Positions 13,273 through 16,614 of a stretch of 38,053 nucleotides of DNA are shown one piece after another. Source of the DNA: Gammaproteobacteria bacterium (GTDB taxonomy: Bacteria; Pseudomonadota; Gammaproteobacteria; GCF-002020875). The stretch is taken from positions 1-38,053 of the forward strand of contig DUYW01000012.1 of NCBI GenBank assembly GCA_013349825.1, written 5' to 3'. Every line of letters begins with the position of its first letter. Within the stretch, counting starts at the first letter, position 1. The notes below the pieces were generated by a model. That model was not told the DNA's origin. It saw nothing but the letters and a program-made list of their open reading frames with translations, and searched no databases. A program made the position numbers and the translations under genes.

Positions 13273-13491
13273 TTGGTGGATATAACTTTAACAGACGCAC
13301 TGATTGTTGCAGGTAGCGGTATGGTGGTGATTTGGCTCTTTCTTTGGTACATCAATACCCACCCAAAAGGGTGTTGCGGTATTCGTCGGGCAATCTTGAA
13401 AGATGAGGATCTGCCATTGAACCGGCTGATTGAAGAGGAGAAGGAGAAATCACACGTTGTTACCCCAAATCTTTCCTCTTCACCTTCATAA
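13273..13491 (+). CDS. Small single-pass membrane protein, unknown
   Basis: A frame of 72 residues starting with TTG at 13273 or, one codon on, GTG at 13276, just after a G6 run (13265-13270) that could bind ribosomes. Residues about 8-27 form one hydrophobic helix (IVAGSGMVVIWLFLWYI), followed by a short Cys-Cys segment (HPKGCCGIRR) and a charged, acidic C-terminal tail. I do not recognise it. It precedes the candidate RNA and soeABC on the same strand, but those have their own promoter, so a link is only positional. Confidence 0.5.
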   Translation: MVDITLTDALIVAGSGMVVIWLFLWYINTHPKGCCGIRRAILKDEDLPLNRLIEEEKEKSHVVTPNLSSSPS

Positions 13492-13520: not shown

Positions 13521-13549
13521 TTGACAATGATGGGGCGCATCGCTATAAT
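13521..13549 (+). promoter_or_regulatory. Perfect consensus sigma-70 promoter
   Basis: TTGACA (13521-13526), a 17-base spacer and TATAAT (13544-13549) match the sigma-70 consensus at all 12 positions with the optimal spacing. The predicted transcription start, about 13556-13557, is only two or three bases before the long hairpin at 13559. Confidence 0.9.
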
Positions 13550-13555
13550 GTGCAG

Positions 13556-13643
13556 CATAGGCCTTCAGAGGGTTTCCTTCGAAAAAGAACCTCCTCCTCC
13601 TTCTTTCGTAGGTTCCCCCACCCTCTGAGGGCCTTCTTTTTTA
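13556..13643 (+). ncRNA. Candidate small RNA or soeABC leader with CCUCC loop
   Basis: A predicted transcript of about 88 nt. Positions 13559-13573 pair with 13620-13634 in a 15-bp stem with one G-U wobble (U13564-G13629); the stem is followed by a T-rich tract (TTCTTTTTTA), as in an intrinsic terminator. The 46-nt interior holds ACCTCCTCCTCCTT (13590-13602 region), which repeats the CCUCC core of the 16S anti-Shine-Dalgarno, and can form an inner helix either with 13580-13589/13601-13608 or 13587-13592/13610-13615. It could be a free small RNA ending at the T-run, or an attenuating leader of soeA, whose start is 65 bases further. It does not resemble a molybdenum cofactor riboswitch that I know. 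Confidence 0.6.
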
Positions 13644-13707: not shown

Positions 13708-16614
13708 ATGAATGAGAACAGATCCCGAACGGAGACCAAAAATACAACCTGTTACATGTGTGCCTGTCGTTGTGGTATTCGGGTCACGTTGCAGGATGGT
13801 GAGGTCCGGTTTATTCAGGGTAATCCCGACCATCCACTGAACAAAGGGGTGATCTGTGCCAAGGGTGCCTCAGGCATCATGAAACAGTACTCACCAGCAC
13901 GCCTGACTAAACCACTGTTACGTAAAGAGGGTTCAGAGCGTGGGGCGGGTGAGTTTGAACCGGTCTCGTGGGAGAAGGCGTTTGAGATGATGGCGCAGCG
14001 TTTGGGCAAAATTCGCTCGACCGACCCCAAGAAGTTTGCACTTTTCACCGGACGTGATCAGATGCAGGCTCTGACAGGTCTTTTTGCCAAGCAGTATGGC
14101 ACCCCCAACTATGCCGCACATGGTGGCTTTTGCTCTGTCAACATGGCAGCAGGGATGATCTACACCATTGGTGGATCATTCTGGGAGTTTGGTGGCCCCG
14201 ATCTGGAGCGCTCCAAGCTCTTTATCATGATTGGCACCGCAGAGGATCACCACTCCAATCCGATGAAGATGGCGCTCTCCAAATTCAAGCGTGACGGTGG
14301 GCGGTTTATCTCGATTAACCCAGTACGTAGCGGATACTCGGCAATCGCAGATGAGTGGGTGCCGATTAAACCGGGTACAGATGGTGCCCTGCTGTTGGCA
14401 CTCACCAATGAGATTATCAATAGAGGGCTGTTTGATCGCGACTACCTGATCGACTACACCAATGCACCGGAGTTGGTGAATCAGGATGAAGAGAGCAATG
14501 AATTCGGTCTCTTTATCCGTGACAGGTCAAACGAAGTTGAAGAGGGTTGTTTTGATCCACAGAATAAATTCTGGTGGGATAGCAAGAGTGAGCAGATTGT
14601 TGCCAACCGTACCGAGGGGGCTGACCCTTACCTGCTGGGAACCTACACGCTTGAGGATGGAACGGCCGTAAAGACGGCCTTTCAGTTGCTGGTAGATCGG
14701 CTCAAAGAGTACACCCCGGAGTGGGCGGAGAAGATCACTGGAATTCCGGCAGAGACCATTAAACGTCTGGCACATGAGATGGGTGTTACAGCGCGAGATC
14801 AAAAGATAGAACTTCCCATCGCCTGGACTGATGTCTGGGGCAAAGAGCATGAGACGGTAACCGGTAATCCGGTCTCGTTTCATGCGATGCGTGGTCTGGC
14901 AGCTCACTCTAATGGATTTCATGCAATACGTGCGCTGTCGATTTTGATGACCCTGTTGGGGACCATCGACCGGCCGGGTGGTTTTCGTCACAAGGCTCCA
15001 TTTCCACGCCCTGTTCCTCCTTGTGCCAAGACCCCGAAAGGGCCGGAGGGTGTGCAGCCCGATACGCCGTTAAACGGGATGGCGCTGGGTTGGCCAGCCG
15101 ACCCGGAAGATCTCTTTGTGGATGAAGATAATGAGCCGGTCCGTCTTGATAAAGGGTTCTCGTGGGAGCATCCACTCTCCGTGCATGGGTTGATGCATAA
15201 TGCGATCACCAATGCCTGGCGGGGCGATCCATACAAGATTGATACTTTGTTGATCTTTATGGCAAATATGGCATGGAATTCCTCCATGAACACCGCTGAA
15301 GTGCGCAAAATGCTCAACGATAAAGAGGAGAATGGAGAGTATAAGATTCCATTCCTGATTGTCTGTGATGCCTTCCAGTCGGAAATGACCGCCTTTGCCG
15401 ATCTGGTGTTGCCAGATACCACCTATCTGGAACGGCATGATGTGATGTCAATGCTGGATCGCCCGATCTCTGAGTTTGATGGTCCGGTGGATTCGGTGCG
15501 TATTCCAGTACTGCCTCCAACCGGTGAGTGCAAACCGTTTCAGGAGGTACTGATCGAGTTGGGCAGTCGTTTGGGGCTACCCGCCTTTGTCAATGAGCAG
15601 GGCGAGCGTAAATATCGTGACTACCCCGATTTTGTGGTCAACTATGAGACAGAGCCTGGCTCTGGTATCGGTTTTCTCTCTGGATGGCGAGGTAAGGGGG
15701 GGGAGAAGTTTATGCAAGGTGATCCCAACCCGAACCAGTGGGAGATGTATGCGCAGAATAATTGTGTCTACCACCATGAGTTGCCCAAATCCTACCAATA
15801 TATGCGTAATTGGAACCAGGGCTATCTGGAGTGGTCGCGGCACCATCGGTTGACGCGTTATGTAGAGCCGATCAATATCCATATCTACTCCGAGGTTTTG
15901 CAGAAATTCCGCCTTGCAGCACAAGGTAAACGTCCGGGCAAACAGCCACCACAACGGCTGCGTAAACGGGTGGAGGAGTACTTTGATCCACTGCCGTTCT
16001 ACCATGAGCCGCTAGAGGCGGCGCGTACAGATCGTCACAAATACCCGCTGAGTGCAATTACTCAGCGACCCATGGCGATGTACCATTCATGGGATTCACA
16101 AAATGCATGGTTACGACAGATCCATGCCCACAACCACCTCTATCTCCACCCCAGCGTTGGGGTAACCAACGGTTTTGAAGACGGTGACTGGATCTGGGTG
16201 GAGTCAATGCATGGCAAAGTGCGTTGCATGTGCCGCTTCAGTGAGGCGGTTGAGCCGGGTACAGTGTGGACCTGGAATGCCATTGGCAAGGCCTCCGGTA
16301 GTTGGAATCTGGATCCCAATGCCAATGAGTCCAAGAAGGGTTTCCTGTTAAACCATCTGATTGCTGAGGAGTTACCGGTAAAAGCGGGTGAGACACCACT
16401 CTCCAATTCAGACCCTGTTACCGGTCAGGCGGGTTGGTATGATGTGCGAGTACGTGTCTACAAGGCAGAAGATCAAGAGCCAGGGATCACCTCGCCGCAG
16501 TTTGATGCCGTCAAGCCAGCGCCTGGAATGGTGAAACGGGCAGGTAAATGGCTTGCCTTCAGAGGGGGCAGTGGCCTGTTTAAAAAGTTACTGCCAGAGG
16601 GAGATCATTCATGA
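13708..16614 (+). CDS. soeA: Sulfite dehydrogenase (quinone) molybdopterin subunit SoeA
   Basis: The catalytic subunit of the cytoplasmic sulfite:quinone oxidoreductase that oxidises sulfite to sulfate in sulfur-oxidising bacteria. The 968 residues are a DMSO-reductase family protein: a [4Fe-4S] motif CX2CX3CX27C (Cys15, 18, 22, 50), a likely Mo-ligand Cys142 in GGFCSVN, and the C-terminal molybdopterin dinucleotide-binding domain (from about residue 770, HLYLHPSVGVTNGFEDGD). There is no Tat signal, which fits a cytoplasmic enzyme and argues against Psr/Phs reductases. No Shine-Dalgarno precedes the ATG; the leader is pyrimidine-rich. The stop overlaps soeB by ATGA. Assignment rests on the subunit sizes and order as well as sequence. 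Confidence 0.87.
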   Translation: MNENRSRTETKNTTCYMCACRCGIRVTLQDGEVRFIQGNPDHPLNKGVICAKGASGIMKQYSPARLTKPLLRKEGSERGAGEFEPVSWEKAFEMMAQRLGKIRSTDPKKFALFTGRDQMQALTGLFAKQYGTPNYAAHGGFCSVNMAAGMIYTIGGSFWEFGGPDLERSKLFIMIGTAEDHHSNPMKMALSKFKRDGGRFISINPVRSGYSAIADEWVPIKPGTDGALLLALTNEIINRGLFDRDYLIDYTNAPELVNQDEESNEFGLFIRDRSNEVEEGCFDPQNKFWWDSKSEQIVANRTEGADPYLLGTYTLEDGTAVKTAFQLLVDRLKEYTPEWAEKITGIPAETIKRLAHEMGVTARDQKIELPIAWTDVWGKEHETVTGNPVSFHAMRGLAAHSNGFHAIRALSILMTLLGTIDRPGGFRHKAPFPRPVPPCAKTPKGPEGVQPDTPLNGMALGWPADPEDLFVDEDNEPVRLDKGFSWEHPLSVHGLMHNAITNAWRGDPYKIDTLLIFMANMAWNSSMNTAEVRKMLNDKEENGEYKIPFLIVCDAFQSEMTAFADLVLPDTTYLERHDVMSMLDRPISEFDGPVDSVRIPVLPPTGECKPFQEVLIELGSRLGLPAFVNEQGERKYRDYPDFVVNYETEPGSGIGFLSGWRGKGGEKFMQGDPNPNQWEMYAQNNCVYHHELPKSYQYMRNWNQGYLEWSRHHRLTRYVEPINIHIYSEVLQKFRLAAQGKRPGKQPPQRLRKRVEEYFDPLPFYHEPLEAARTDRHKYPLSAITQRPMAMYHSWDSQNAWLRQIHAHNHLYLHPSVGVTNGFEDGDWIWVESMHGKVRCMCRFSEAVEPGTVWTWNAIGKASGSWNLDPNANESKKGFLLNHLIAEELPVKAGETPLSNSDPVTGQAGWYDVRVRVYKAEDQEPGITSPQFDAVKPAPGMVKRAGKWLAFRGGSGLFKKLLPEGDHS

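Follow-up and report, generated by a model that had tools for sequence, protein, structure and literature searches.

A predicted small RNA with an anti-Shine-Dalgarno-like loop behind a consensus promoter in a genus of uncultivated marine Gammaproteobacteria

The stretch of DNA analyzed here (38,053 nucleotides, hereafter the window) carries, shortly upstream of soeABC, a promoter that matches the sigma-70 consensus at every position, which raises the question of what such a promoter serves. An initial annotation had offered two answers, a stand-alone RNA of about 88 nt with a CCUCC loop, likened to the cuckoo RNAs, or an attenuator of soeABC. The promoter itself was confirmed as TTGACA-N17-TATAAT at 13521-13549, with 12 of 12 matches to the consensus and a 17-bp spacer. 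We searched for this exact pattern in the six genomes of the genus, G000 (the window's own) to G005, which within the genome set searched also make up the whole order. Six matches were found in total (three in G001, one each in G000, G002, and G005, and none in G003 and G004), four of which are positioned to drive the predicted RNA described below, RNA A. Its promoter is the only perfect one in the 2.87-Mb genome of G000, and likewise in G002 and G005, and the reversed control pattern had no match in the six genomes. Based on the fact that the exact pattern occurs once in a 2.87-Mb genome and never in its reversed form, and that RNA A has homologs in all five congeners, we consider the site to be more than a chance occurrence.

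The exact pattern also stands 5' of RNA A in G001, G002, and G005, and inspection of the remaining homologs showed a promoter one base off the consensus in G004 (TTGACT) and TTGCAA in G003. The TATAAT hexamer is invariant in all six homologs, the spacer GAATACTAA preceding it is common to G001, G004, and G005 (and nearly so in G003), and a G+C-rich discriminator follows the -10 hexamer throughout. In well-studied bacteria a discriminator of this type accompanies growth-rate and stringent control. The locus is a specific example, open to experiment, of a genome whose one consensus promoter would serve a non-coding RNA.

Transcription from this promoter would be expected to start at approximately 13555-13557, 2-4 nt 5' of a 15-bp stem that ends in a T-run, an arrangement the initial annotation had described accurately (Table 1). 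At 89 nt, the predicted fold of RNA A has a minimum free energy of -34.9 kcal/mol, which no shuffle out of 200 equaled (z = -5.4). The anti-Shine-Dalgarno (anti-SD) core repeat that had been noted inside the RNA is present as well (ACCTCCTCCTCCTT, at 13589-13602). Absent from that annotation were two features of the fold: the CCUCC motif is displayed as a hairpin loop by an inner stem, and a UUCCCCC stretch is single-stranded. RNA A has an architecture in which a seed hairpin is nested within the terminator stem.

Table 1. Locations of RNA A and its parts, the adjoining small ORF, and RNAs B to E (window positions unless a genome and contig are given).
Feature	Location	Strand	Basis or description
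-35 hexamer TTGACA	13521..13526	+	Sequence match
-10 hexamer TATAAT	13544..13549	+	Sequence match; G+C-rich discriminator after it
RNA A, putative independent sRNA, about 87-88 nt, ending in T-run	13556..13642	+	Fold z, covariance model, outer-stem covariation
Outer 15-bp stem, 5' arm	13559..13573	+	Pairs with 13620-13634
Inner stem, 5' arm (CCU-U-CGAAA)	13576..13584	+	Pairs with 13604-13612
Anti-SD-like loop CCUCCUCCUCCUU	13590..13602	+	Motif kept in the loop in six genomes
Inner stem, 3' arm (UUUCG-U-AGG)	13604..13612	+	Fold
Single-stranded C-rich bulge UUCCCCC, 3' side of internal loop	13613..13619	+	Kept in five of six genomes
Outer stem, 3' arm, doubling as terminator stem	13620..13634	+	Fold, covariation
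T-rich terminator tail TCTTTTTT	13635..13642	+	Sequence; T-rich tail in all homologs
71-codon small ORF (MDITLTDALIVAGSGMVVIWLFLWYINTHPKGCCGIRR...), predicted membrane protein	13276..13491	+	Adjoins RNA A in four of six genomes
RNA B, about 140 nt	G000:C6:9293-9434, with counterparts in five genomes		Two loop hairpins and a terminator hairpin
RNA C	G001:C80, about 15750-15804	-	Perfect sigma-70 promoter, UUUCUCCUCCUUU-loop hairpin, terminator; only in G001
RNA D, near ligA	G005:C46:57973-58104		Two hairpins, loops ACCCUCCUCCUC and CUCCUCC; only in G005
RNA E, anti-SD-loop hairpin RNA	about 24346-24270	-	-10 TATAAT at 24357-24352; loop CUCCCUCCUCCUCGU

A covariance model identified homologs of RNA A in each of the six genus genomes. 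G002 to G005 were already recovered by BLASTN, and the covariance-model match in the sixth genome, G001, had an E value of 1.9e-9. Among the five closest sequences, five of the 15 outer-stem pairs are changed on both sides, compared with 2.1 in shuffles, and there are 8 cells compared with 2.5. The covariation score of this stem is 0.278 versus 0.162 in shuffles, every measure falls when the pairing partner is slid, and the result is unchanged with G001 added. Five genomes have an identical inner stem; the G001 version is rebuilt as CUUACGA/UCGUAGG around a loop that is still CUCCUCCUCCU. Loop length varies (GAA-CCUCCUCC, A-CUCCUCCUCC, GAA-CCUCCUCCUCC), yet CCUCCUCC or CUCCUCCUCC is retained in all six genomes, and CCUCCUCC or CUCCUCC is present in every variant. 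The UUCCCCC bulge is kept in five of the six, with G004 having UCCCCCC, and is replaced by UUUUU in G001. The fact that the outer stem covaries while the loop letters stay constant as loop length varies indicates selection on pairing outside and on letters inside. The stem and CCUCC loop, on whose conservation in related genomes the initial annotation had staked its proposal, are conserved, compensatory changes included.

The G002 gene is split over two contigs (C175 and C333) whose ends have 41 identical bases of the hairpin in common, with ssb on one side of the break and a tolC-like gene on the other; this may be a rearrangement or a collapsed repeat.

When 84,980 species were scanned for the pattern, the only matches were four contigs, which belong to three metagenome-assembled genomes of this same genus (Gammaproteobacteria bacterium co234_bin55, SI037_bin54, and a bin labelled Methylophaga). 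Beyond the genus, covariance searches of 369 class genomes gave two marginal matches (G369 and G322; E 0.001-0.008), which have neither the promoter nor the nested hairpin and were judged to be chance, and a match in G009 is a chance similarity inside other sequence. The class-genome search used stricter filters, so remote relatives of RNA A may have been missed. We found no sRNAs described for this uncultivated marine group of Gammaproteobacteria, to which RNA A adds an undescribed family.

The genes flanking RNA A bear directly on the second of the two original proposals. As annotated, soeA starts 65 bases after 13643 (ATG at 13708), and no SD is visible for it in the window. There is no other promoter match between the T-run and soeA, and read-through from so strong a promoter could feed soeABC in G000, all of which would suit a soeABC leader or attenuator whose terminator stem controls read-through into soeA. 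However, soeA is present only in G000 and G003 among the six genomes, four of which carry RNA A without it. Downstream of RNA A, G000 has soeA, G003 has an ankyrin-type gene, G004 and G005 each have a gene for an MFS transporter, G002 has a TolC-like gene, and G001 has purD in convergent orientation (neighbors in the other genomes were named from their translations by inspection, with no family search). In G003 the soeA gene (protein 92% identical) is on a different contig, and the unrelated 103-base stretch available 5' of it contains no RNA A. RNA A itself keeps its ancestral place in that genome; the upstream synteny of peroxiredoxin, pilin, polyprenyl synthetase, and small ORF is common to G000 and G003. 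The G003 soeA likewise has no SD, so the missing SD belongs to the soeA gene itself. In addition, neither an alternative antiterminator fold nor a leader peptide was seen. Since the downstream gene varies by genome and the other soeA lies elsewhere without the RNA, we consider RNA A to be a stand-alone sRNA and not a conserved soeABC attenuator. Attenuation of soeABC, which we now regard as very improbable, is refuted as a conserved role; read-through in G000 is possible and cannot explain the retention of the RNA.

On the other side of RNA A is a 71-codon small ORF that has a homolog in all six genomes (weak in G001) and no Pfam family. In four genomes it directly precedes RNA A, and in two of these (G004 and G005) its stop codon runs into the -35 region, as might be the case if RNA A merely served the ORF as a strong terminator or RNA end and had a fortuitous promoter. 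We find this scarcely credible, because in G001 and G002 the RNA and its perfect promoter stand elsewhere, behind other genes, and because a terminator needs neither an invariant interior nor a 12/12 promoter.

The loop motif of RNA A recurs in other predicted RNAs of the genus. A search for TATAAT followed 15-45 bases on by CTCCTCC found RNA A in all six genomes and, similarly, RNA B in all six. The 24 matches of this search are not an enrichment over the reversed control (about 24); A and B stand out in that each is found, with stems that covary, in all six genomes, and RNAs C, D, and E were each seen in one genome. RNA B has a first hairpin with the loop ACCCUCCUCCUC, a second with the loop UUUUCCCCCAAUU, in which the UUCCCCC motif of the RNA A bulge recurs, and then a terminator hairpin. 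Ten of its 22 pairs are changed on both sides, with 20 cells compared with 6.1 in shuffles, none of 500 of which was as high. By inspection, RNA B is flanked in every genome by a pyridoxamine-oxidase-like gene, beyond which is metF; its other neighbor is rsmE, except in G003. RNA B has no Rfam match; its best sub-threshold sRNA matches are tfoR, LhrC, sX13, and alpha-r14, mostly C-rich-loop sRNAs, and its score against the sX13 model (RF02232) is 16.1 bits, far below the gathering score of 50. Apart from the two C-rich motifs, RNAs A and B do not evidently resemble each other in sequence. RNA B, also undescribed, is one sibling at least that is conserved throughout the genus.

One of the other two perfect promoters of G001 precedes RNA C, which sits between prmA and dusB-fis and reads AAUCACCA-UUUCUCCUCCUUU-UGGUGGUU before its terminator. 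RNA E is intergenic, between def and a hemerythrin gene, and has a 15-bp stem (24327-24313 with 24297-24283). A and E are the only strong intergenic hairpins with a CTCCTCC loop in the window, which has one weaker match, with mismatched arms, in a coding region. A possible further hairpin, with the loop GACCUCCUCCCA, is located behind a TATAAT at G003:C62:1496-1545.

We compared RNA A with known sRNA families, and a scan of the window, the RNA A region (E <= 10), and the homologous loci against Rfam gave nothing credible. The top match, mir-136 (18.5 of 64 bits), is due to chance, and RNA A does not match 6S RNA (RF00013), for which there is a separate gene in each of the six genomes. The cuckoo or CcsR RNAs carry CCUCC-type loops. 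This loop is the only likeness between RNA A and those of the CIN1 locus, and it is the part of the original comparison that holds. CcsR RNAs form a tandem series processed from the transcript of a DUF1127 gene and have RpoH promoters (PMC10253847), whereas RNA A is a single hairpin and has a sigma-70 promoter to itself; the window's other CUCCUCC hairpin is on the opposite strand, 10.7 kb away. No Pfam model match to DUF1127 was found in the 71-aa ORF or the other flanking proteins, and Rfam showed no similarity to alpha-r14.

The alphaproteobacterial alpha-r14 RNAs (NfeR1/Smr14C, SmelA075; RF02344) resemble RNA A in that they are stand-alone, trans-encoded, and have anti-SD hairpin loops, in their case CCUCCUCCC, a motif repeated on poorly conserved, unrelated stems (PMC10746234, PMC3927594). 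However, they are about 123 nt long with three hairpins, each with CCUCCUCCC, while gammaproteobacterial RNA A has one hairpin, with CCUCCUCCUCC, nested in the terminator stem, and it did not match RF02344 even at E <= 10. The sX13 RNA of the Xanthomonadaceae (RF02232) is, like RNA A, gammaproteobacterial and strongly structured with C-rich single strands. It is highly expressed in its host, and its C-rich loops (CCCC, CCCCC) act independently of Hfq to repress mRNAs that carry G-rich motifs close to the start codon (PMC3771888). Unlike RNA A, which does not match RF02232, sX13 is located at polA and has three stem-loops; the nested seed hairpin sets RNA A apart from both alpha-r14 and sX13, for which three separate hairpins are described. 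The neisserial sibling sRNAs NgncR_162/163, whose stem-loop single strands cover the ribosome binding sites (RBSs) of many metabolic mRNAs, are comparable to RNAs A to E as siblings in one genome with single strands in stem-loops (PMC9973317). They differ from RNA A in class, sequence, and architecture, and the two are of a single kind, whereas all that RNAs A to E have in common is the loop motif. RNA A is thus outside alpha-r14, CcsR/cuckoo, and sX13 by every feature tested. It shares with the class of anti-SD/C-rich-loop sRNAs its own promoter and terminator, a conserved structure, independence of its neighbors, and a conserved unpaired CCUCC/C-rich seed, and it most probably works like these RNAs. 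In our assessment RNA A is a new sRNA family whose functional kind is already known; its unusual promoter and convergent siblings are the most notable features.

We consider it likely that RNA A is an independently transcribed, trans-acting sRNA whose C-rich stretches block the RBSs of a set of mRNAs. The consensus promoter would give rise to an RNA of about 88 nt, folded as one long interrupted hairpin, with the outer stem and U-run as its intrinsic terminator. The inner hairpin would offer CCUCCUCC(UCC)UU and the bulge UUCCCCC, both as single strands, which could pair in trans with G-rich or purine-rich RBSs of several mRNAs and so block initiation, as in alpha-r14/NfeR1 and sX13. Supporting this expectation is the recurrence of CUCCUCC on unrelated stems, for which selection acting on the loop, as a pairing seed for purine-rich RBSs, is the best explanation. 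The original interpretation is accordingly supported in part: the stand-alone RNA with a CCUCC loop by the conserved stem and loop, the RNA's own promoter, and its independence of neighbors, with RBS pairing as its probable mode of action. RNA A may be highly abundant, and it may act with or without Hfq. An hfq gene is encoded in five of the six genus assemblies; none was found in the G000 assembly, probably because of an assembly gap.

With respect to targets, no conserved extended site was found in the six genomes, as sites for AAGGAGGAGG, the longest exact complement, are mostly Lys-Glu-Glu codons. One such site, common to G000 and G003, is antisense to a branched-chain aminotransferase-like gene. 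In the window, with start codons called mechanically, translation starts have no advantage over gene interiors in the predicted strength of loop pairing, and a motif search of the Hfq upstream region, considered by analogy with sX13, found nothing. An anti-SD loop alone confers little specificity, and the lack of the UUCCCCC bulge in G001 also speaks against this mode of action. In a broader reading, the unrelated RNAs A to E would have converged on one free anti-SD loop as a genus-wide layer of global translational control, with the most consensus-like promoter reserved for one of them and a soluble anti-SD competing with 30S subunits for strong SDs genome-wide. We regard this as speculative and on the whole doubtful. 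Here another lineage again shows unrelated RNAs converging on the ribosome's own anti-SD sequence.

Rho favors pyrimidine-rich RNA. The single-stranded parts of RNA A are nearly pure pyrimidine and are conserved more strongly than a short seed requires, and a consensus promoter suits a titrating RNA, which must be abundant; RNA A might therefore bind or titrate a protein or another RNA in place of mRNA RBSs, such as Rho, Hfq, or the GGA loops of CsrA-sequestering RNAs. We think this unlikely, based on the fact that the motif repeats of the siblings lie in hairpin loops, which fits kissing or base pairing better than Rho loading, and that no candidate partner was identified. The presence of a separate 6S RNA further indicates that RNA A is no 6S replacement.

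Pairing with mRNA RBSs, which remains our preferred reading, might extend to the 71-codon ORF. If RNA A were foremost a cis-linked regulator of this ORF, with UUCCCCC and CCUCC both pairing with its G-run RBS, the CUCCUCC siblings would be left unexplained; G-runs are also ordinary SD variants, and the comparison concerns few genomes and a target chosen post hoc, so we judge such a role to be highly unlikely. As one possible target of the UUCCCCC bulge, the G-run RBS is a suggestive candidate, albeit one picked post hoc. It is GGGGGG or GGGGAGGG in the four genomes in which the ORF adjoins RNA A, compared with GGGAG in G002, where the two are apart, and the predicted bulge-RBS duplexes in those four genomes range from -12 to -17 kcal/mol, values that shuffles rarely match.
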